Source: Ruminococcus sp. (GTDB taxonomy: Bacteria; Bacillota; Clostridia; Oscillospirales; Ruminococcaceae). Taken from it: a stretch of 64,000 bases of DNA. The notes beneath the pieces were generated by a model. That model did no database searches. It was not told where the DNA came from and was given only the letters and a program-made list of their open reading frames with translations. Positions 37,781-49,456 of the stretch are shown piece after piece. The stretch lies in the NCBI GenBank assembly GCA_017519145.1, contig JAFWTA010000030.1, positions 186,001 through 250,000 on the forward strand, in the 5' to 3' direction. Within the stretch, counting starts at the first letter, position 1. Each line of letters begins with the position of its first letter. The position numbers and the translations under genes are program-made.

Positions 37781-38734
37781 ATGAACAAGACGTATTATAC
37801 AAACCAGATCAATTCTGTCATTGCCGAGGTCAAGAAAGCTGTCATCGGCAAGGACGCTATCATTATCAAGGCTCTTCTTGCTATGCTGTGTAAAGGTCAT
37901 ATCCTTATCGAGGATATCCCCGGCGTTGGTAAGACCACCCTTGCACTTGCTTTTTCAAAGGCACTCTCACTTGAACACAACCGTATGCAGTTCACTCCCG
38001 ATGTTCTGCCCTCTGATGTAACCGGCTTTTCCGTGTACAACAAGAGCAACGGCAAATTCGAGTTCCGTCCCGGTGTTGCTTTCTGTAACCTGTTCCTCGC
38101 TGACGAGATAAACCGTACCTCCAGCAAGACACAGTCCGCTCTCCTTGAGCTTATGGAAGAAAAAAGCATCACTGTTGACGGAAACACCTACAAGCTCCCC
38201 GAGCCATATACCGTTATCGCTACCCAGAATCCCATCGGCTCGGCAGGTACTCATAATCTCCCCGACTCACAGCTGGACCGTTTCATGATAAAGCTCAGCA
38301 TGGGCTACCCTGATTTTGACGGTGAGGTTTCCATCCTCAAAGCAAAGCACAAGAACAATCCCCTTGAAAATGTGCAGCCTGTTGCCGATGCAACATTTAT
38401 CACCGAGCTTCAGGAGTACATCTCCAACATCTATGTTGACGAAAGGATCTACGAGTACATAGTTTCGCTTTCGGCAGCTACCCGTAACCACCCCATGCTC
38501 AAGCTTGGTGTCAGCCCGAGAGGTACTCTGGCTCTCATGCAGCTTTCAAAGGGTATCGCTGTTGCCATGGGAAGAGATTACGTTATCCCTGAAGATATCT
38601 CATATATCTGCAGTGACGTTTTCGAGCACAGGATAATGCTCAACTCAAAGGCAAAGCTTTCGGAAACAAGCGCTTCCGATATCATAACAGAGATACTGAA
38701 AACAGTTCCCGTTCCGGGGATCAGCGAAAAGTAA
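37781..38734 (+). CDS. MoxR family AAA+ ATPase
   Basis: A 317-residue AAA+ chaperone-like ATPase. Motifs are Walker A EDIPGVGKTT (near residue 45), Walker B FLADEINR, ELMEEKSITVDG and sensor ATQNPIGSAGTHNLPDSQLDRF. MoxR proteins accompany DUF58 and transglutaminase genes, and are thought to help mature or insert protein complexes at the membrane. It heads a four-gene operon and starts after AGGAG. Confidence 0.95.
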   Translation: MNKTYYTNQINSVIAEVKKAVIGKDAIIIKALLAMLCKGHILIEDIPGVGKTTLALAFSKALSLEHNRMQFTPDVLPSDVTGFSVYNKSNGKFEFRPGVAFCNLFLADEINRTSSKTQSALLELMEEKSITVDGNTYKLPEPYTVIATQNPIGSAGTHNLPDSQLDRFMIKLSMGYPDFDGEVSILKAKHKNNPLENVQPVADATFITELQEYISNIYVDERIYEYIVSLSAATRNHPMLKLGVSPRGTLALMQLSKGIAVAMGRDYVIPEDISYICSDVFEHRIMLNSKAKLSETSASDIITEILKTVPVPGISEK

Positions 38735-38743
38735 GGCGAAAAT

Positions 38744-39937
38744 ATGATCCTTACAAAAATACTGTTTATTATACTTATAATAGTATGTATCTGCTTCTAT
38801 GTGCTCTATGTATGGGATTTTGCACTGATACTTCTCATTGTCATTGCTGCTCTGCCTGTTATCATGTTCATAACTACATATATAACAAAGAAGCTCATAA
38901 CCGTGGAATTTGCCGTAAAGGACAAGAATGTTTCCAAGGGCAAGGACTTCCCCGTCCAGCTCGTTGTAACAAACAGAAGCATTTTCCCCATCGGCAAAGC
39001 GGAGGCACATATAGAATATTATAATGTATTCAGCGATCAGATCTCGGCATTCGATCTGTATCTGCCCATACAGCCTAAAAACTCTCAGCGTATAACTTTC
39101 CAGCTCAGCTCAAAGTTCTGCGGAGTAATAAAGATACGCTCAGCCCGTCTGAATATCTACGATCCGCTCAGACTGTTCAGATTCAGGACAGCGAAGAATA
39201 TATGCACAGATATAGCTGTCATGCCGGAAGGTCACGAAATAGGCGGCATAGTCCATTATACCGACCGCGTCAACGAGGAGAGCGACGTTTTCTCCGAGTA
39301 CAAGCCCGGCGATGATCCCTCTGAGGTATTCGACCTGAGAGAATATAATCAGGGAGACAAGCTTAACCGCATACACTGGAAACTGAGCTCGAAAAAGGAC
39401 GATTTCATAGTCAAGGACTACAGCCTTCCCATTGACGTTCCCTGCTCCGTGTTCCTTGATCTGAAGTGCTATGAGAAAAGCGATCTGACACTTCCTGTTT
39501 TCGATACGCTTATCGAGACAATGATCTCCCTCTCTCAGTTCCTTCTTGAAAACGAGAGAGGTCATTCCATTATTTTCTTCAATTCATCGCTGAACAGATT
39601 TGTTGAACACACCGTACTTGACAGCGCAGACCTCAATTCTGTTATAAATGAGATAATCTCATCGGTAAGGGACGATCTCTTCTGTCAGTCGCCTGATGTT
39701 TACTTCGCTGAAAATCCAACGCTTTCTTACGCCTCATTTTCTATCATAACCTCGTCTAAGGACCACAGGGTACTTGAACATATAGACGAGAACATAGAAG
39801 CCGATTTCAAGAACGCGCTTCTGGTCGTAAATTCAGCCGACGATCTCTCCGAAACGCTTGCAGGCTATCAGGCTCTCAGCATCATCCCCGTTGCAGTCGG
39901 TAAGATCTCCGCTTCAATAAAGGACATAGATATATAA
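38744..39937 (+). CDS. DUF58 domain membrane protein
   Basis: A 397-residue protein with two N-terminal membrane helices (about residues 3-50), then a beta-rich and vWA-like region. The DUF58 signature is visible as YKPGDDPSEVFDLREYNQGDKLNRIHWKLSSKKDDFIVKDY, read in pieces. It is expected to act with the upstream MoxR ATPase in a complex of unknown biochemical activity. The stop overlaps the next start (TAATG), so translation is coupled. Confidence 0.92.
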   Translation: MILTKILFIILIIVCICFYVLYVWDFALILLIVIAALPVIMFITTYITKKLITVEFAVKDKNVSKGKDFPVQLVVTNRSIFPIGKAEAHIEYYNVFSDQISAFDLYLPIQPKNSQRITFQLSSKFCGVIKIRSARLNIYDPLRLFRFRTAKNICTDIAVMPEGHEIGGIVHYTDRVNEESDVFSEYKPGDDPSEVFDLREYNQGDKLNRIHWKLSSKKDDFIVKDYSLPIDVPCSVFLDLKCYEKSDLTLPVFDTLIETMISLSQFLLENERGHSIIFFNSSLNRFVEHTVLDSADLNSVINEIISSVRDDLFCQSPDVYFAENPTLSYASFSIITSSKDHRVLEHIDENIEADFKNALLVVNSADDLSETLAGYQALSIIPVAVGKISASIKDIDI

Positions 39938-42630
39938 TGAAAAGAAAGAACATACAAAACAAAAACGGCATTTCTATCAGCGACAGCATAGTAATGTCCG
40001 TAAAAAGGAAGCACGCCAACTACCGCAAGCCTTTTTCCGCTGCGATAGCTATTATAGGCTTCATTTCCATTATAAAGGCATTTCTCGGAATGTTCCATTT
40101 CAATTATGCTGCCGGCACGGTATTTATTGCCGCTGCCGTCATCGGAGCATTATACCTTACGCTTGCAATTGTAGGAAAAAAGGCATTATGGGTCTACGCT
40201 GCTTCAGTCATCGTATTTGTAATCTGTGCGTACAGAAAAGCCGCAAAGATTGCTCTTGGCTTCAAGTTTATATATAATATAGTATATAAAGACGCCTATC
40301 ACTCCGAGATAGAATACTATAAAGGACTAAAGTCGGCTCTGGAAGTCTCCTCGGTCAACACCCTGTTCATCTTCTACATCTGGCTGCTTGCCATTATCGT
40401 ATTCTTCTTCACCATATGCCGTCCCAATCCTGTACTCCCGCTCATGATCACGTTCCCCGTACTTGAGATCGGTATGTACAACGGCATCAGAGTTCCCGTT
40501 TTCTGGGGAATACTGTGTATAGCCTTCTGGCTCGCACTTCTTGCCATGTCTACTATTGACGTGGGAGAATATTCGGGCGGACAGAGCGGCTTTGTCCGAA
40601 AGAACGACCTGTTCTTCCCGAAGCGTCATATGAAGCTGAAGGTCACGGAAAAATGCGGAATGCTTATTATAGCCTCCGTTGTTGGTGTGGCTGCTGTTTC
40701 ATCCTGCTTTCTGAAGCTGACTCACTATAAGCGCAGCGAAAAGCTGGACGACAAGCGCCGGGAGATCACAGAGGCTCTTAACGATTTTTCATTCGATAAT
40801 CTGGCAGAAAGCCTTTCCAATCTCTCAAACGCCATCGGACTTGACTTTGAGTACGAGAATCACAAGCTCGGCACAAACGATCATGTCAGATACAAGAATG
40901 TCACCGATCTTAATGTGACACTGGATCATTCCATAGACGGAGCTCTTTACCTGAAGGATTACGCAGGTGCAGTCTACAAGAACAACGAATGGTTCGGCCT
41001 TTCTTCATCAGCATATAAGGATCCGTGCTTCAAGGATTTTGACTCCTATGACCTTCATCCTCAGGACTATCCTGCTATGTTTACAAAGCTGATCTATCCG
41101 AATGTACAGGAAACAACTGTATGGATCAAGCCCAGTGCAAAAAAGAGCAGGCACCTTTATGCTCCTTACGATACTATAAATGTAGGCTCGCTCTCATATC
41201 AGAAGGATCTCACGCTCTCTGACAGCAAAGCCAAAAAAGGCGAATGTTCATATAAGTTCATCAATGTTGATACAGACTCATTATACAATGAGCTTGTTAA
41301 TATCGAAGCTCAGAACAGTTCAAGACAGTCCAGAGAGGTCTATTCTGTATCTGATGTCAAGATCGCAAATGTGAAGGAAAAGATCAATAAATATTGCAAT
41401 GAGAACGATCTCATCACATATGATGACTACTTCCCTGTTGACTTCAGCATCCCTGCACCTCCCGAGTATCTGCTCTCAAACAGTGAAACGCTGCTTGCTG
41501 AGCTCATGCAGGATAAATACAAGCAGTTCGTTTACGAAAACTACCTGCAGGTCCCCGATACGAAAGCAATGAACGAGGTCAGGGACGCTTACTCTGATAT
41601 CATCTCAATGTATGACGGCTCGGTCAGCAGCGAGTTCGCAACTCTGAAGGCTATCAGGGAACGTATGCTGAGCGAATGCACATATTCACTCTACCCCAGA
41701 AAGACTCCGTCTAACCGCGATTTCGTCAATTACTTCCTGCTTGAAAACAAAAAGGGATATTGTACCCACTATGCTACCTCGGGTGTAATGCTGGCAAGAA
41801 TGGCAGGCATCCCTGCGCGTTATGCTACAGGATATATCGTTGTTGAAAAGGATATAAGCAGCGGACGTTCTAATGCTGACGGTTCAGTTTCGTTAGAAGT
41901 AAAGGATAACAGGAGCCATGCATGGGCTGAGATCTACATTGACAGCATCGGCTGGGTACCGTATGAGTTTACTGCCGGCTATTCAGCTCAGGAAGTAAAC
42001 ACGGAGCCTGTTACAACTGCTGCTACTACCTCTAATGAAAATGTAACAACAACTACCCGTGATATGTCCGAAAGGACCACAGGCTCTGTAAGCAGAGCTG
42101 CCACCACTACAACAAAAACTGCTGTTACAACTAAGGCTTCGACCTCGGTAAATAAGGGCGGCAGCGGCATAGGTTCAGGCAATGGAATACACATTCCAAA
42201 GGCACTGAAAAATATCCTGCTTTTACTGTTCGCACTTATTGTTATAACAGTATTCATTCTTCTGAGAAGGAAATTCATACTCAGCCTGAGAGAAAAGCGC
42301 TTTACAACAGGCAAATCCGAACGAAAGGTAAGGTATATGTACGCATATGCCGAGAAGCTGCTTGAATCTCTTGAAATGAAGAGCGAAAACGGCAACTATA
42401 ACAGCTTCGCAGAAGAAGTTGAAAAGTCATTCGGCGGTATTTACTTCGACGAGGGAGCCTTCAAAAAGCTCACTGATGTTGCTCTGAGAGCAAGCTTCAG
42501 TCAGGAAACACCTACTTCTGATGAGATCAATGAGAGCCGCAGGACTATTGAAGCCATCTCAGATAAGATCTATAAAAAGGCAAGCCGCTTTGATAAGCTG
42601 AGAATGATGTACATTAATGTTCTGAAATAG
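39937..42630 (+). CDS. Transglutaminase-like membrane protein
   Basis: An 897-residue protein: a basic N-terminus, about six membrane helices (residues 25-270), an extracytoplasmic part and a transglutaminase-like domain (about 590-680). The catalytic Cys is C609 in GYCTHYATS and the His is H661 in SHAWAEIY; the acidic residue position reads YEFT (Glu where Asp is common). A Thr-rich linker (about 690-740, with ATTTTKT runs) and a final membrane helix (about 755-775) with a cytoplasmic tail follow. Such TgpA-like proteins may cleave or cross-link peptides at the surface. It overlaps DUF58 by one base. Confidence 0.9.
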   Translation: MKRKNIQNKNGISISDSIVMSVKRKHANYRKPFSAAIAIIGFISIIKAFLGMFHFNYAAGTVFIAAAVIGALYLTLAIVGKKALWVYAASVIVFVICAYRKAAKIALGFKFIYNIVYKDAYHSEIEYYKGLKSALEVSSVNTLFIFYIWLLAIIVFFFTICRPNPVLPLMITFPVLEIGMYNGIRVPVFWGILCIAFWLALLAMSTIDVGEYSGGQSGFVRKNDLFFPKRHMKLKVTEKCGMLIIASVVGVAAVSSCFLKLTHYKRSEKLDDKRREITEALNDFSFDNLAESLSNLSNAIGLDFEYENHKLGTNDHVRYKNVTDLNVTLDHSIDGALYLKDYAGAVYKNNEWFGLSSSAYKDPCFKDFDSYDLHPQDYPAMFTKLIYPNVQETTVWIKPSAKKSRHLYAPYDTINVGSLSYQKDLTLSDSKAKKGECSYKFINVDTDSLYNELVNIEAQNSSRQSREVYSVSDVKIANVKEKINKYCNENDLITYDDYFPVDFSIPAPPEYLLSNSETLLAELMQDKYKQFVYENYLQVPDTKAMNEVRDAYSDIISMYDGSVSSEFATLKAIRERMLSECTYSLYPRKTPSNRDFVNYFLLENKKGYCTHYATSGVMLARMAGIPARYATGYIVVEKDISSGRSNADGSVSLEVKDNRSHAWAEIYIDSIGWVPYEFTAGYSAQEVNTEPVTTAATTSNENVTTTTRDMSERTTGSVSRAATTTTKTAVTTKASTSVNKGGSGIGSGNGIHIPKALKNILLLLFALIVITVFILLRRKFILSLREKRFTTGKSERKVRYMYAYAEKLLESLEMKSENGNYNSFAEEVEKSFGGIYFDEGAFKKLTDVALRASFSQETPTSDEINESRRTIEAISDKIYKKASRFDKLRMMYINVLK

Positions 42631-43232: not shown

Positions 43233-43264
43233 GATACTGCCGAGCGATCGGCAGTATCTTTTTA
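43233..43264 (+). terminator. Terminator of the MoxR operon
   Basis: GATACTGCCGA and TCGGCAGTATC form an 11-bp stem around GCGA, followed by T5. Confidence 0.93.
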
Positions 43265-43285
43265 TGCCGTAAATCGAACAAGTGT

Positions 43286-43314
43286 TTGACAATTATACAG
43301 ATATGTGATATAAT
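43286..43314 (+). promoter_or_regulatory. Consensus promoter of the TerB-BrxD-helicase operon
   Basis: TTGACA at 43286-43291, a 17-base spacer ending in TGTGA, TATAAT at 43309-43314. It marks these three genes as an independent unit. Confidence 0.92.
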
Positions 43315-43348
43315 ATAAGTTGAACTTTCAGAAAAGGGGGCGTGAAAA

Positions 43349-44860
43349 ATGTCGGATACAAAAGAGATACTTCAGCAGATACTAAATGACGAAAAGCTTC
43401 TTAAAAGCCGCGCATTCCGCGACAGAGTATACACCGATGAACCTATTATCCGAACCGCCTCACAGCTCCCGCGGCCTGAAACTCCTGAAAAGATAAAGGA
43501 GATGAAAGGACTCGCTTTCACTCCCGAAGCATACTGGAAGACCTCCGCGTGGCTTTTCTACACTCAGGGCAGGTTCATGGAGAATTTCGAGGATGTATAT
43601 CCGTATAACGAGGACTTTGTGAAATACTATCCTTCATACCGTGATATGTCCACAGAACAGCTAAGAGGCTATTTTTCGTGGCGCACCAGAGTCCGCAAAG
43701 GAAAAATCGAAAAAGCTCCCACACCGTTTGTGTATGTATATCTGTATGAACTGATAAACTGCATCGGCTATGCCGAACCGACAGAATGCTTTCAGCAGTT
43801 CAGAAGCTTCTGTCAGCAGTACGCTTCCATTGATGACAGTATTGAAAAATACACCGATACATGGCTCAGAGACTTTATCGTATACTACGGTCTTGACTGC
43901 TCTCTTGCCGATGATCTTGAAGATGTAAAATACGATAAACAGCTCCTTACGCTTATACACTGGGATGAGCACAGCAAAGACGAGCTTTTCACAGCTATTG
44001 ATGCACTGTCATCATATCAGCTGAAAAAATCACTGTTCTATGCAGCCTTTCCCGATGATATGAAGGAGATCATCGTCAGGAGCTTCATAAAGCTTTCGGA
44101 GTTTTTCCGCGACAAAAGAAAGAACTCCCTGTGTGACAAGCTTTTCGGTAATATCGTAGAATGCACATATAATATGTTCCCTTCATCAATATTCTACGAC
44201 AGACAGTCACTGAGAGACTGTGAATATGTTCTTAACGAAATACATTCATACTCCTGTAAAAGCGGTAAATGGAAGTGCCGTAAATACTACGGCAACCGAG
44301 GCAGAAACGGTCATCTTGGCGACCTTATAAAGGCTATTGACAGCCTTATGCGCGAGAAAAAAGACTTTAAGCACAAGATAAGCTATACAGGTGTTTCAAA
44401 AACTGCGTTAAAGCTCATACAAGCCGAGATAGACGCTATGTATGAGGAGCAGCGCCGCGCAGAGGCTGCTAAGATCGAGATAGACCTCTCTAAGCTTGCC
44501 GGCATAAGAAAGGCTGCCGACAGCACCCGCGAGAAGCTTCTGGTCGATGATGAGGAACCCGAGATCATTACAGCTCCTCCTGAGCCTGTTATCGTCGATG
44601 AAGAAGTCCCTGATGGGGTTGATGGCAGTCCTCTCGACTGTGACGAAAAGCTTTTCATAAGAGCGCTTCTCTACGGCAGAGATACCAATGCAGCGGCTAA
44701 AAGCTGCGGAAAGATGGTCTCTATCCTTGCAGACAGCATAAATGAAAAGCTCTTTGACTTCTTCGGCGATACTGTCATAGACTTCTCTGCCGACAGTCCG
44801 GAGCTTATTGAAGATTACACCGATGAACTGAGGGAAATGTTTCCCGATAATAAGGAGTAA
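43349..44860 (+). CDS. TerB-N/TerB-C domain protein
   Basis: A 503-residue protein, not a membrane protein. The first 200 residues (FTPEAYWKTSAWLFYTQGRF, then YFSWRTRVRKGKIEKAPTPFVYVYLYELINCIGY) match the TerB-N pattern; the middle is helical. After an acidic Pro-rich hinge (about 405-430, EEPEIITAPPEPVIVDEE) the last 75 residues look like the TerB-C type region. TerB-N/TerB-C proteins are predicted to work with ATPases and SF2 helicases in DNA-processing stress or defence systems. Here those partners follow directly. Starts after GGGGG with ATG 43349; the next gene is four bases downstream. Confidence 0.85.
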   Translation: MSDTKEILQQILNDEKLLKSRAFRDRVYTDEPIIRTASQLPRPETPEKIKEMKGLAFTPEAYWKTSAWLFYTQGRFMENFEDVYPYNEDFVKYYPSYRDMSTEQLRGYFSWRTRVRKGKIEKAPTPFVYVYLYELINCIGYAEPTECFQQFRSFCQQYASIDDSIEKYTDTWLRDFIVYYGLDCSLADDLEDVKYDKQLLTLIHWDEHSKDELFTAIDALSSYQLKKSLFYAAFPDDMKEIIVRSFIKLSEFFRDKRKNSLCDKLFGNIVECTYNMFPSSIFYDRQSLRDCEYVLNEIHSYSCKSGKWKCRKYYGNRGRNGHLGDLIKAIDSLMREKKDFKHKISYTGVSKTALKLIQAEIDAMYEEQRRAEAAKIEIDLSKLAGIRKAADSTREKLLVDDEEPEIITAPPEPVIVDEEVPDGVDGSPLDCDEKLFIRALLYGRDTNAAAKSCGKMVSILADSINEKLFDFFGDTVIDFSADSPELIEDYTDELREMFPDNKE

Positions 44861-44864
44861 AACT

Positions 44865-46184
44865 ATGAAAATACCTAAAAGAATCGCTTCCGCAGTCATA
44901 AACTCCCTCAAAGGCGGAGTTGTGCCGCGAACAGGCCTCCCGTATATAACTGTCGGACGTGAGACCGAGATAGACGCTCTTCTTCATGACGTAGATATAA
45001 TTGCCGACGGCGGTGCTGCCTTCCGATTTATCTCCGGCAAGTACGGCAGTGGTAAAAGCTTCCTCCTCCAGACCATAAGAAGCCATGTTATGGACAGGAA
45101 CTTCGTTGTGGTAGATGCCGATCTTTCACCTGAGAGAAGACTTCAGGGCACAAAGGGTCAGGGACTTGCTACCTATAAGGAGCTTATACGCAATATGTCC
45201 ACAAAGACTCGTCCCGACGGCGGTGCCCTGACTCTTATCCTTGACAGATGGATAAGCGGAGTGCAGAGTGAAACTGCTGCAGAAACAGGTATGTCCCCCG
45301 ACTCTCCCGAGTTCGGTAAGGCTGTGGAAAAGAAGATATATGAGGTAATAAATGCCCTCAGCGAAATGGTCCACGGCTTTGATTTCGCAAGACTGCTCAC
45401 CATCTACTATCGTGCCTCAGCCAACGGAAATGATGAGGAAAAGGCAAAGGTAGTAAAATGGTTCCGCGGAGAATACGTCAACAAGACCGAAGCTAAGTCA
45501 GAACTTGGCGTCAATATCGTCATAAGCGACGATGACTGGTACGAGTATATCAAGCTCTTTGCAATGTTCCTGAAAATGGCAGGCTACAGCGGACTTCTCG
45601 TGCTCATTGACGAGCTTGTAAATATTTACAAGATACCAAACAGCATCACAAGACAGTACAATTATGAAAAGATACTCACCATGTACAACGACACCCTTCA
45701 GGGAAAGGCAAAGTACATCGGTATCATCATGGGCGGCACTCCACAGTGCATCGAGGACACGCGGCGCGGTGTCTACAGCTATGAGGCTCTTCGCTCACGA
45801 CTGGCTGAGGGTCGCTTCGGACGGGAGGGTGTAAGGGATATGCTGGCTCCGGTTATACACCTTATCCCACTCACCTATGAGGAGATGCTGGTGCTTACGG
45901 AAAAGCTGGCTGATATCCACGCTCAGCTGTTCGACTATGAGCAGAAGATAACTCAGGAAGACATGGTACGCTTTATACAGCTGGAATTTTCCCGTATAGG
46001 CTCAGACAGTCATATCACTCCCCGTGAGGTCATACGCGACTTCATTGAGCTACTCGACATAGTTTACCAGAATCCGCAGATAAATATCAGCGAATTTATT
46101 GCTTCCGACTCCATGACTCATGTAAAGCCTGCTGTGGGTCAGGATGACCGGACCGATGAAGAATTCGCCGAGTTTGAGATATAA
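44865..46184 (+). CDS. BrxD/BrxC-like P-loop ATPase (DUF2791 family)
   Basis: A 439-residue AAA-type ATPase. Walker A is GKYGSGKS at residues 58-65 and Walker B LLVLIDE at 244-250. The N-terminal IASAVINSLKGGVVPRTGL and GRETEIDALL, then RLTEGRFG-type RLAEGRFGREGVRDM, match the family called DUF2791, which includes BREX ATPases BrxD and BrxC. Members form large rings and act with helicases on DNA. The SD AAGGAG overlaps the TerB stop codon. It is followed 11 bases later by the helicase gene, as in BrxD-BrxHI pairs. Confidence 0.87.
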   Translation: MKIPKRIASAVINSLKGGVVPRTGLPYITVGRETEIDALLHDVDIIADGGAAFRFISGKYGSGKSFLLQTIRSHVMDRNFVVVDADLSPERRLQGTKGQGLATYKELIRNMSTKTRPDGGALTLILDRWISGVQSETAAETGMSPDSPEFGKAVEKKIYEVINALSEMVHGFDFARLLTIYYRASANGNDEEKAKVVKWFRGEYVNKTEAKSELGVNIVISDDDWYEYIKLFAMFLKMAGYSGLLVLIDELVNIYKIPNSITRQYNYEKILTMYNDTLQGKAKYIGIIMGGTPQCIEDTRRGVYSYEALRSRLAEGRFGREGVRDMLAPVIHLIPLTYEEMLVLTEKLADIHAQLFDYEQKITQEDMVRFIQLEFSRIGSDSHITPREVIRDFIELLDIVYQNPQINISEFIASDSMTHVKPAVGQDDRTDEEFAEFEI

Positions 46185-46195
46185 GGACTTGCAAT

Positions 46196-48433
46196 ATGAG
46201 TATTTTTGAAAGATACGCGCCCTTTATACAAGACTTCATTTACCGTAATAACTGGGAGTCACTCCGCGCTATACAGGCTGCCGCAGGCGACGCTATTTTC
46301 AATACAGACGAAAACGTCCTGCTGACCGCCTCCACTGCCTCCGGAAAGACTGAGGCTGCGTTCTTCCCTATCCTGACACTTTTCAGCGAAGATATGCCCG
46401 CTACAGTCGGAGCAATTTACATAGGTCCTCTGAAAGCTCTTATTAACGACCAGTTCATGCGTCTCAACGAGTTATGCGAGGAGGCACATATCCCCGTCTG
46501 GCACTGGCACGGTGATGTTGCACAGTCCCACAAGAGCAGGATGCTGAAAAATCCCTCGGGCATTCTCCAGATAACTCCAGAATCACTTGAAGCAATGCTT
46601 CTGAGAAAACACGCTCTTATACCCAAGCTTTTCGGTGATCTTCGGTTCATCGTCATCGACGAGATACACTCCCTTATGCGCGGTGACCGCGGCGGTCAGA
46701 CTATCTGTCTTATCGAAAGGCTGTGCAGAATGGCAGGTGCTGACCCTCGAAGGATAGGTCTTTCCGCCACTATCGGCGATCCCGCAGCCGCAGGTGAGTT
46801 TCTCTCCTACGGCACCGGCAGAGGCACCGTAATTCCTAAGATCGAGGGCAAAGGTGTAAAGTGGAGACTCTCCATGGAGCATTTTTACATCAGTCAGCAA
46901 AATCAGCCAGATGAAAAGGACACATCCGAGGGACTCCACGTTTTAGATGCCAAAACAGATACTGCTCCCGAACACGCCGATGCAGGCATGGGATACATCT
47001 TTGAGCATACCAGAGGCAAAAAATGCCTTATTTTCGTCAATTCACGCGAGGAGTGCGAGGCGGTGACAACTACACTTCGCTCATACTGTGAAGCAAATCA
47101 TGAACGTGACAGGTTCCTCATACATCACGGAAATCTTTCTGCGGCATACCGCGAGACTGCAGAGCAAGCCATGAAGGACGAGGACACCTTTATGACTACC
47201 TGCACTACCGCTACCCTTGAGCTGGGTATCGACATCGGCAGGCTTGAACGCGCTTTCCAGATAGATGCGCCGTTTACTGTATCGTCCTTCTTACAGAGGA
47301 TGGGACGCACAGGCAGACGCGATCTGCCGCCCGAGATGTGGTTCGTTATCCGTGAGGAGCTTCCCGAGCCGCGTTCTATGCTTCCCGAGACAATACCGTG
47401 GAAGCTCATACAAGGCATAGCACTTATTCAGGTATATCTGGAAGAGCGCTGGGTGGAGCCGCCAAAGCTCGACCGCCTGCCCTTCAGTCTCCTCTATCAC
47501 CAGACTATGAGCACTCTCGCTTCAAGCGGTGAGCTGTCCCCTGCGGCACTGGCTTCAAGGGTGCTGTCACTGAAGTATTTCCACAGGATATCTCAGGATG
47601 ACTACAAGATAATGCTCAGACACCTTATTGAAAACGACCACATCCAGCGCACGGACGAGGGCGGTCTCATTGTGGGGCTTGCAGGAGAACGTATTGTTAA
47701 CAGCTTCAAGTTCTATGCGGTTTTTCAGGAGAATGAAGAATATACAGTCCGCTGGGGCTCTCAGGAGCTGGGTACCATTGTAATGCCGCCTCCCAAAGGC
47801 GAAAAGATCGCAATTGCAGGTCATGTGTGGATAGTGGAGGAAGTCGACCACAAGAGGCGGCTTGTCTACTGTGAGCAGATAAAAGGAAAAGTCCCCGCAT
47901 ATTTCGGAGACTGTCCCGGAGATATAAACACTAAAATAATCCTGCGAATGAGAGATGTCCTGAGAGAGGATAAAAAGTACCCATATCTGATGAAAAATGC
48001 CGTTGCAAGGCTTGCACAGGCACGTCTGACTGCTCAGAACTCAGGTGTCACCGATCAGCCGCTCATCTGTCTCGGCGGAAATATGTGGTGTCTGTTTCCT
48101 TGGCTCGGTACATATGCTTTCTTCGCCATGGAGCGCTTTCTGAAGCTGAAATGCGGTGACAGGCTCGGTCTCAGGGGTATGGACTCCTCACGGCCGTATT
48201 ATATACAGTTCACTATGAAGGTGTCTCCGCAGGAATTTTTCTCAGTTCTTGTCGAAGAAGCCGAGAAGGAATTTGATCCCCTCGACCTTGTATATCAGGG
48301 GGAGGTTCCGATATTTGAAAAGTATGACGAGTTTCTTCCGCCTGAACTTGTAAAGAAAGGTTTCGCCTACGGAATACTGAATATCGACGAAATGAAGTCC
48401 AGAATATTCAGTTGGAAAGAATTAATTCATTAA
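46196..48433 (+). CDS. Lhr/BrxHI-like superfamily II DEAD/H helicase
   Basis: A 745-residue helicase. Motif I is TASTASGKT (residues 44-52), motif II DEIH (155-158), motif III LSATIGD, and motif VI QRMGRTGRR near residue 370. Beyond the two RecA folds (to about 400) come a winged-helix and an Lhr-like C-terminal domain (about 410-745), longer than RecG or RecQ. BrxHI, the helicase of type II BREX, has this architecture. The BREX methylase PglX, phosphatase PglZ and BrxC are not in the window, so this is a reduced set. It ends the operon, about 85 bases before LysR, which has its own promoter. Confidence 0.88.
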   Translation: MSIFERYAPFIQDFIYRNNWESLRAIQAAAGDAIFNTDENVLLTASTASGKTEAAFFPILTLFSEDMPATVGAIYIGPLKALINDQFMRLNELCEEAHIPVWHWHGDVAQSHKSRMLKNPSGILQITPESLEAMLLRKHALIPKLFGDLRFIVIDEIHSLMRGDRGGQTICLIERLCRMAGADPRRIGLSATIGDPAAAGEFLSYGTGRGTVIPKIEGKGVKWRLSMEHFYISQQNQPDEKDTSEGLHVLDAKTDTAPEHADAGMGYIFEHTRGKKCLIFVNSREECEAVTTTLRSYCEANHERDRFLIHHGNLSAAYRETAEQAMKDEDTFMTTCTTATLELGIDIGRLERAFQIDAPFTVSSFLQRMGRTGRRDLPPEMWFVIREELPEPRSMLPETIPWKLIQGIALIQVYLEERWVEPPKLDRLPFSLLYHQTMSTLASSGELSPAALASRVLSLKYFHRISQDDYKIMLRHLIENDHIQRTDEGGLIVGLAGERIVNSFKFYAVFQENEEYTVRWGSQELGTIVMPPPKGEKIAIAGHVWIVEEVDHKRRLVYCEQIKGKVPAYFGDCPGDINTKIILRMRDVLREDKKYPYLMKNAVARLAQARLTAQNSGVTDQPLICLGGNMWCLFPWLGTYAFFAMERFLKLKCGDRLGLRGMDSSRPYYIQFTMKVSPQEFFSVLVEEAEKEFDPLDLVYQGEVPIFEKYDEFLPPELVKKGFAYGILNIDEMKSRIFSWKELIH

Positions 48434-48447
48434 TCGCAAAAATTGTC

Positions 48448-48476
48448 TTGATTTTTCAGCTAAAAAGTGATATAAT
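48448..48476 (+). promoter_or_regulatory. Promoter of the LysR gene
   Basis: TTGATT at 48448-48453, a 17-base spacer ending in TGA, TATAAT at 48471-48476. Confidence 0.85.
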
Positions 48477-48517: not shown

Positions 48518-49456
48518 ATGAAAATTCAGCAGCTTGAATATGTAATTGCTGTAGCAAGAGAAGGAAGTATTACTAAGGCAGCAAAAAAACTGTATCAGGC
48601 TCAGCCTAATATCAGTATCGCCCTTAAAGAGCTTGAAGCTTCTCTTGGTATACAGATCTTCAACCGTTCTCCCAACGGAATGATCCTTACGCCAGAGGGA
48701 GAGGAGTTCCTGGCAAGAGCTCAGACCATAGTTGACGAAATGCAGAGCCTCGAAAGAGACTACGCACAGACTCCTGACAATGAGCTGAAGCTCAAGGTCG
48801 CCGCCGCTCGTTCAACCTATGCTACTACCGCAATGGGTAAACTCATCAGCGACTACTCAGAAAAAACCGACAAGATCGAAGTACACGTTATGGAGACAAG
48901 TACAGCAAAGGTCATGGAGGATATATGCGCAGGTAAATATGATATCGGTTTTATCAGGATACCCAGCACCTATGCCGATATGATCGAGAGCCGTCTCAAA
49001 GCCCGTAATCTTGTTGGACGCACCGTTATGGAGTTCCCGCTCCAGATCGTCATGGGTATGAATCATCCTCTTGCAAAGTATGAGGACGTTCCCTACGAGC
49101 TCCTCTTTGATTATCCCGAGATAATCCACGGCGATGATGAGCCCGAAATGATGAGACGAGCTTCCATCAATCAGGACTATGACGACAAGCGCTCCACAAA
49201 GCGTATCTTCATCTACGACAGAGGTACACAGGTAAGTATGCTCAAGACTGTCAAGAACTCATATATGTGGGTCCCTCCCATGTCACAGAAGGTACTGAAG
49301 TACAATGACCTCGTAACAAGAAAGTGTTCATACGCAAATAACCTTAACAGAGATATGATCATTTACCGTAAGGCAAGTGAAAACAGCACACTCATTGCAG
49401 ACTGTATAAGAGCCGTTTATGAGTATGCTGATAAAGTTGAAGGACTTGAAATATAA
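48518..49456 (+). CDS. LysR family transcriptional regulator
   Basis: A 312-residue regulator. The N-terminal winged helix (about residues 1-60; GSITKAAKKLYQAQPNISIALKELE, then GIQIFNRS) is typical, followed by an effector-binding domain of two lobes (about 90-300). Neither its effector nor its targets can be read here. The upstream helicase operon and downstream sRNA lie on separate transcripts, but the sRNA's promoter is close enough to be a candidate target. SD AAAGG-type before ATG 48518. Confidence 0.92.
   Translation: MKIQQLEYVIAVAREGSITKAAKKLYQAQPNISIALKELEASLGIQIFNRSPNGMILTPEGEEFLARAQTIVDEMQSLERDYAQTPDNELKLKVAAARSTYATTAMGKLISDYSEKTDKIEVHVMETSTAKVMEDICAGKYDIGFIRIPSTYADMIESRLKARNLVGRTVMEFPLQIVMGMNHPLAKYEDVPYELLFDYPEIIHGDDEPEMMRRASINQDYDDKRSTKRIFIYDRGTQVSMLKTVKNSYMWVPPMSQKVLKYNDLVTRKCSYANNLNRDMIIYRKASENSTLIADCIRAVYEYADKVEGLEI

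Follow-up and report, generated by a model that had tools for sequence, protein, structure and literature searches.

A three-gene operon in a 64,000-nucleotide stretch of Ruminococcus sp. DNA (hereafter the window; GenBank assembly GCA_017519145.1, contig JAFWTA010000030.1, positions 186,001 to 250,000 of the forward strand) almost certainly belongs, by family, to Shango (sngABC). The explanation that we favour overall is that it is very probably a complete Shango anti-phage system, which would be likely to act against phages in its Ruminococcus host as well. The system is therefore an already known one, and what is new here is the lineage-level picture together with a candidate SOS switch at the promoter. 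The three genes, in window coordinates, are the following.

43349..44860, + strand: sngA, 503 amino acids, with TerB_N (residues 41-235) and TerB_C (366-495) domains; identified by PADLOC (SngA model, 2e-74) and Pfam
44865..46184, + strand: sngB, 439 amino acids, a P-loop ATPase of the BrxC/BrxD family with an acidic C-terminal tail ending in EFEI (PADLOC SngB model, 1.9e-194)
46196..48433, + strand: sngC, 745 amino acids, a superfamily 2 DEAD/DEAH helicase (PADLOC SngC model, 1.2e-279)

Identity of the operon

What makes a Shango operon is a gene for a TerB-type protein next to those for an ATPase and a DEAD/DEAH helicase, and here each protein matches the corresponding Sng model best and near full length: SngA over residues 27-497 (250 bits), SngB over 2-439 (645 bits) and SngC over 3-734 (928 bits). 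The runner-up models are BrxD for SngB (165 bits, 1.1e-48) and BrxHI for SngC (414 bits, 2.6e-124), and SngA matches no PADLOC model besides its own at E 0.01. Pfam finds TerB_N (1.1e-28) and TerB_C (5.7e-23) in SngA, BrxC_BrxD (9.9e-173) in SngB, and DEAD (1.2e-26) and Helicase_C (1.5e-16) in SngC, for which no Lhr-specific model matches at E 0.01. None of the three proteins has a nuclease domain above the Pfam cut-off, and SngC has a below-cut-off match to a Cas3-like helicase C-terminal domain. A sequence search of solved structures returned none for SngA at E 1 and none for SngB at E 0.1. A preliminary description of this DNA had proposed a self-contained unit of TerB protein, BrxD-like ATPase and BrxHI-like helicase, which PADLOC and Pfam bear out, and had taken it for an unnamed candidate system, which it is not, since all three Shango models match almost end to end and far ahead of the BREX models.

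The anti-phage role suggested in the same description is probably right in view of the published activity of Shango: the TerB-like/ATPase/helicase trio of Pseudomonas aeruginosa PA14 is reported to lower plating 10-100 fold for many phages when present in PAO1, and modest activity is also reported in Escherichia coli (PMC10250203). Shango is named among the systems of rumen genomes in a survey that, where it does so, leaves the genus unstated (PMC13356809), and its mechanism is placed among the unknowns in a 2026 review (PMC12926258). No mechanistic study of Shango was among the matches listed by title and start of abstract in our literature search, outside which most subscription journals lie. 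For Shango and LexA together, the one paper listed concerns S. aureus.

The three proteins

The three genes are more than chance reading frames, since relatives are found in a further 40 genomes of the genus (72-98% identity for SngB, 80-97% for SngC) and since they are under constraint, the ratio of nonsynonymous to synonymous substitution rates (dN/dS) being 0.01-0.11 across sngA, sngB and sngC where computable. Alignment shows the ATPase and helicase motifs of the window SngB and SngC to be intact. Among distinct open reading frames (ORFs) that span 80% or more of the query, window sequence included, the Walker A (G58, G61-S65, including K64) and Walker B (D249, E250) motifs of SngB are kept in 91/91, and motif I K51, D155-E156-x-H158, S190-A-T and R371/R374 of SngC in 77/77. 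One sngA copy has in-frame stops (G045:C205:46804-47226) and one sngC copy a single in-frame stop (G031:C66:25948-28179), each of which reflects either decay or an assembly error (G, C and L numbers are our handles for genomes, contigs and loci).

The C-terminus of SngB is made of an acidic stretch (the last 20 residues hold on average 6.7 acidic and 0.7 basic residues) followed by a conserved EF-x-[ILV] tail, with an F among the final four residues of all 91 sequences. This F also aligns in nine of nine copies that include one archaeal and two proteobacterial plasmid ones. The tail looks like a docking peptide, a comparable one being the tail of SSB, and as a candidate docking peptide it offers a handle on how Shango works.

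SngA is the more variable partner. Its median length is 500 amino acids over 110 ORFs, some of which are cut at locus ends. The plasmid copies are longer: 760-815 amino acids in an archaeal one and two from proteobacteria, and 573 in one from Paenibacillus. At the level of nonsynonymous change (dN), SngA outpaces SngB by a factor of 3.7-6.9 in the four pairs drawn from the window, L032, L033 and L034, and by a factor of 2.7 in a fifth pair (L035-L038). An arms race was considered as an explanation and rejected: we claim no positive selection on SngA because dN/dS is 0.04-0.11 in the four computable pairs and because the upstream transglutaminase and DUF308 genes change about as fast. As for this upstream neighbourhood, a MoxR ATPase, a DUF58-like protein and a transglutaminase-domain protein are encoded in a row at 37781-42630, the DUF58-like label of the middle gene being our assumption (no Pfam match at 1e-5); in the compared pairs MoxR is highly conserved and the transglutaminase changes at least as fast as SngA.

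Distribution and co-occurrence

One refutation offered in the preliminary description was a failure of the three genes to keep company in other genomes, and they do keep company. In 100 genomes of the genus (the source genome included; threshold E 1e-100 for SngC), SngA, SngB and SngC are each found in 41, always the same ones, although some of these copies are fragments on short contigs (e.g. G017, G036, G037, G006 and G089). When only genomes with a completeness of 90% or more and a contamination of 5% or less are considered (n = 55), each gene is present in 27 and none in the other 28. In 299 genomes sampled from the phylum, SngA and SngB occur in the same 16, and SngC in those 16 plus G194, its weakest match; the same searches gave no match for any of the three in 14 control genomes. 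The closest named relatives are strains of Ruminococcus flavefaciens, with SngB identities of 98 and 96%. On the strength of the identical genome sets we reject a chance juxtaposition of genes.

Linkage alone accounts for most of this co-occurrence. The telling cases are therefore the genomes in which the genes are kept together beyond one operon, which supports a single functional unit: (i) G032, with sngAB on C8 and sngC on C35, (ii) G028, with sngA on C6 and sngBC on C32, (iii) G005, a fragmented assembly, with sngAB on C30 and sngC on C135, and (iv) G075, in which sngC is inverted. Genomes with unlinked genes argue for the three proteins working in trans as one machine.

Two further observations concern the make-up of these loci. 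A small ORF that is ArsC/Spx-like by eye occurs in two genomes (L060:8889-9278 and L061:12772-13122): in G079 it separates sngB from sngC, and in G075 it adjoins the inverted sngC. On plasmids, a search at E 1e-40 finds SngB matches in 680 of 72,556 records, a count that may include BrxD relatives; most are from Klebsiella and Salmonella, 540 are predicted to be conjugative, and the four plasmid SngB loci that we opened all hold the TerB_N/ATPase/helicase trio.

Chromosomal site and descent

In the R. flavefaciens group, Shango occupies one core-chromosome site, where its residence is old and largely vertical. As had been described, the unit stands alone among ordinary genes: none of the 20 other window proteins scanned has a PADLOC match, and the neighbours identified by Pfam include release factor 1 (RF1), CoaE, Sua5, an M18 aminopeptidase, topoisomerase subunits, DNA polymerase III alpha, WhiA and RapZ. 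It is thus a lone system in a core region, as far as the 20 scanned neighbours show. Among 31 Shango-bearing loci longer than 9 kb from other genomes, Shango lies directly upstream of the same LysR gene in 13, nine of which, like the window, have the full order DUF308-Shango-LysR. In another genome with Shango at this site (G044; L041, between 12098 and 15267), about 3 kb of extra DNA separates sngA from the DUF308 gene, possibly marking an insertion spot.

The tree of SngB and SngC (12 taxa) agrees with that of six neighbour proteins (RF1, Sua5, M18 aminopeptidase, CoaE, MoxR and the DUF58-like protein; 16 taxa), save for G071, whose support in the Shango tree is 0.46. Identity to the window correlates with that of RF1 for SngC (Spearman 0.85) and less closely for SngB (0.57); both values come from 37 of the 40 other carriers, the three with no RF1 match having been dropped. 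For SngA, the tree (11 taxa) is at odds with the neighbour tree, grouping for instance G041 with G019 (0.98), which could reflect either divergence or exchange of SngA alone. One genome, G062, is nested among carriers as sister to the carrier G035 (support 1.00) and yet lacks all three genes; its DUF308-LysR gap retains a terminator, a promoter-like sequence with TTGACA in which the GAAC half-site described below is missing, and the LysR promoter. Owing to its position in the tree, loss of the operon is the best reading for G062, although its promoter alone is no proof of loss, since G020 and G080, which have no Shango at the site, also have a TTGACA promoter there. The R. flavefaciens group offers a case of a defence system that has seemingly become a stable part of the core chromosome.

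A LexA-type site at the promoter

The control region and the borders of the operon comprise four further features.

43286..43314, + strand: sigma-70 promoter TTGACA-17-TATAAT with TG before the -10 hexamer, matching the consensus at 12/12 positions; TTGACA present in 8/8 aligned upstream regions
43275..43288, + strand: candidate LexA-type operator CGAACAAGTGTTTG, of the form GAAC-N4-GTTT, overlapping the -35 hexamer
43233..43258, + strand: terminator-like hairpin at the left border, after the upstream DUF308 gene, which it parts from the operon
48448..48476, + strand: promoter-like sequence of a LysR-family gene at the right border, outside the system, with a counterpart in G062, which has no operon

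The anatomy given in the preliminary description, one consensus promoter and three tightly packed genes, stands: each gene starts with ATG, the intergenic gaps are 4 and 11 bases, and the promoter is the sole 12/12 match across the 6.5 kb scanned, in which promoter-like matches overall (8 vs. a shuffle mean of 8.5) are not above chance. A comparable hairpin is visible by eye in the other seven aligned upstream regions, and the next gene after sngC is the LysR-family gene at 48518-49456. The earlier reading of the promoter was nevertheless incomplete, having missed the LexA-type site that lies on it.

Eight aligned upstream regions of the group, window included, have CGAAC (seven) or AGAAC (one), four variable bases and GTTTG over the -35 hexamer, with the half-sites GAAC and GTTT invariant in all eight; TTGACA itself dictates part of the GTTT half-site but not the GAAC one. 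The site fits the clostridial LexA operator consensus GAAC-N4-GTTT/C: GAAC....GTTT is found at lexA, recA and ruvC of Clostridioides difficile, and a set of LexA search motifs based on two clostridia includes GAACnnnnGTTT and GAACnnnnGTTC, according to one study (PMC4234289). GAAC-N4-GTTY or its reverse form occurs in 18 of 84 distinct SngA upstream regions, whereas 200 rounds of dinucleotide shuffling gave 0.85 on average and never more than 4, and in 15 of the 18 regions it adjoins or overlaps TTGACA; with a slightly different cut, the box is in 19/85 upstream regions vs. 1.28% of random 280-mers. A scan of the whole window gave one box match against 0.16 expected.

Several points count against LexA control. 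The box is absent from 66 of the 84 upstream regions, its 18 carriers come from related genomes with a shared ancestry and so do not count as independent, and 11 of 100 shuffles of the window hold one or more such matches. Furthermore, CGAAC-N4-GTTYS occurs only twice in the whole genome, at Shango and at one other site, which by eye we take to lie between rpsT-like and gpr-like genes, with no SOS gene there. (A reversed-pattern control gave 23 and 32 matches; it is devoid of the CG of the pattern and not composition-matched, and we do not take it to prove depletion.) Short motifs, a method that can miss genes, found no lexA, recA or other SOS gene in about 0.42 Mb of the genome, and uvrBA was not found after murB and hprK (names by eye). 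All things considered, control of the operon by LexA via the predicted operator is a serious possibility, and the site suggests when Shango might be switched on. A more ambitious and tentative proposal is that Shango in the R. flavefaciens group is a vertically inherited, SOS-induced form of genome surveillance, repressed by LexA at the -35 box and released by DNA damage or phage takeover, with subunits functionally kept together even where rearrangement of the chromosome has parted their genes. If true, Shango would belong to the DNA-damage programme of the cell instead of being just a mobile defence cassette.

A possible mechanism

How the three proteins might act can be sketched from their families. 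SngC, as a superfamily 2 ATP-driven translocase, would load on abnormal or replicating foreign DNA, SngB, as a BrxC/BrxD-family P-loop ATPase, could serve as loader or switch, and SngA, with its TerB_N and TerB_C domains, might be the faster-changing scaffold or sensor that couples the two. Jointly, SngABC would block replication of the invader with neither a methylase nor a recognised nuclease. In this lineage LexA bound over the -35 box may hold transcription down, and DNA damage or phage takeover would release it. We offer the translocase mechanism as a speculative one.

Anti-phage system or something else?

The anti-phage reading has to be weighed against a number of facts that do not favour it. 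Shango protection is described as modest and not effective against all the phages tested, and the phage tests reported concern two other species, not Ruminococcus (PMC10250203). The window operon is not in a defence island, going by the 20 neighbours scanned, and its SngA shows no match, at E 1, to the central TerB core PF05099, which a table gives for Shango (PMC10952713). Among four plasmid SngA proteins matching PADLOC, PF05099 is above the cut-off in one (36.9 bits), just under it in another (24.3 vs. 24.4) and missing from two, and it is not found in two further chromosomal SngA relatives either; the domain appears to be common but not universal in SngA, so we do not treat it as defining Shango.

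Long vertical residence and low dN/dS would also fit a housekeeping role in genome maintenance, that is, DNA repair or replication restart under SOS, with phage resistance elsewhere as a by-product. The core-chromosome site, the near-vertical inheritance, the way SngC identity tracks that of RF1, the strong purifying selection and the LexA-type box are all compatible with this explanation, which we nonetheless consider unlikely: the genes are dispensable, as seen from their absence from 59/100 genomes of the genus, 28/55 of the good ones and G062, nested among carriers, and phage tests of Shango have been published for two species (PMC10250203).

Defence against plasmids or mobile elements in general, instead of phages, is an improbable alternative. 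It draws on the helicase-containing ApsAB, which acts on plasmids and some E. coli islands of which also carry Shango (PMC11096173), but the published Shango assays are against phages (PMC10250203), and Shango-like SngB is itself found on many plasmids (the 680 records mentioned above, with the same proviso about BrxD relatives).

A stripped-down or diverging BREX relic, to which the BrxD and BrxHI matches and a C-terminal PglX fragment located on the same contig, about 51 kb downstream of sngC, might point, is so improbable that we reject it, given that the Shango models score far higher, that a TerB gene accompanies the pair in the same genomes, that neither PglX nor PglZ is among the 20 window proteins scanned and that the downstream PglX piece is a fragment. 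This piece, a 289-amino-acid ORF outside the window (L178:16697-17566, i.e. G000:C36:285697-286566), matches model residues 877-1167 of 1174 (E 1.7e-91) and no others, and is a fragment of either a BREX-type or a type IIG methylase.

Comparison with known systems

The Ter (tellurite) systems share the TerB_N and TerB_C domains with SngA, whereas no Ter-family Pfam match was found in the 20 other window proteins scanned. DruE of Druantia and DpdJ of Dpd differ from SngC in their partners and, judging from PADLOC model lengths, in size. Both show weaker PADLOC cross-matches to SngC, and with SngC and BrxHI they have been described as a potentially distinct helicase clade (PMC12278908). BREX, the BrxD and BrxHI of which are homologous to the ATPase and helicase studied here, differs in that the window operon has a TerB gene, no PglX or PglZ among the neighbours scanned and much lower scores with the BREX models. 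The closest likeness is to Shango of P. aeruginosa PA14 and E. coli, where a TerB-type protein is likewise encoded in one operon with an ATPase and a DEAD/DEAH helicase (PMC10250203), a likeness drawn from PADLOC models and published descriptions. The differences are (i) a SngA of 503 amino acids with no Pfam TerB core, shorter than the archaeal/proteobacterial plasmid copies of 760-815 amino acids, (ii) a location alone among core genes, not in a hotspot, and (iii) a LexA-type box at the promoter.

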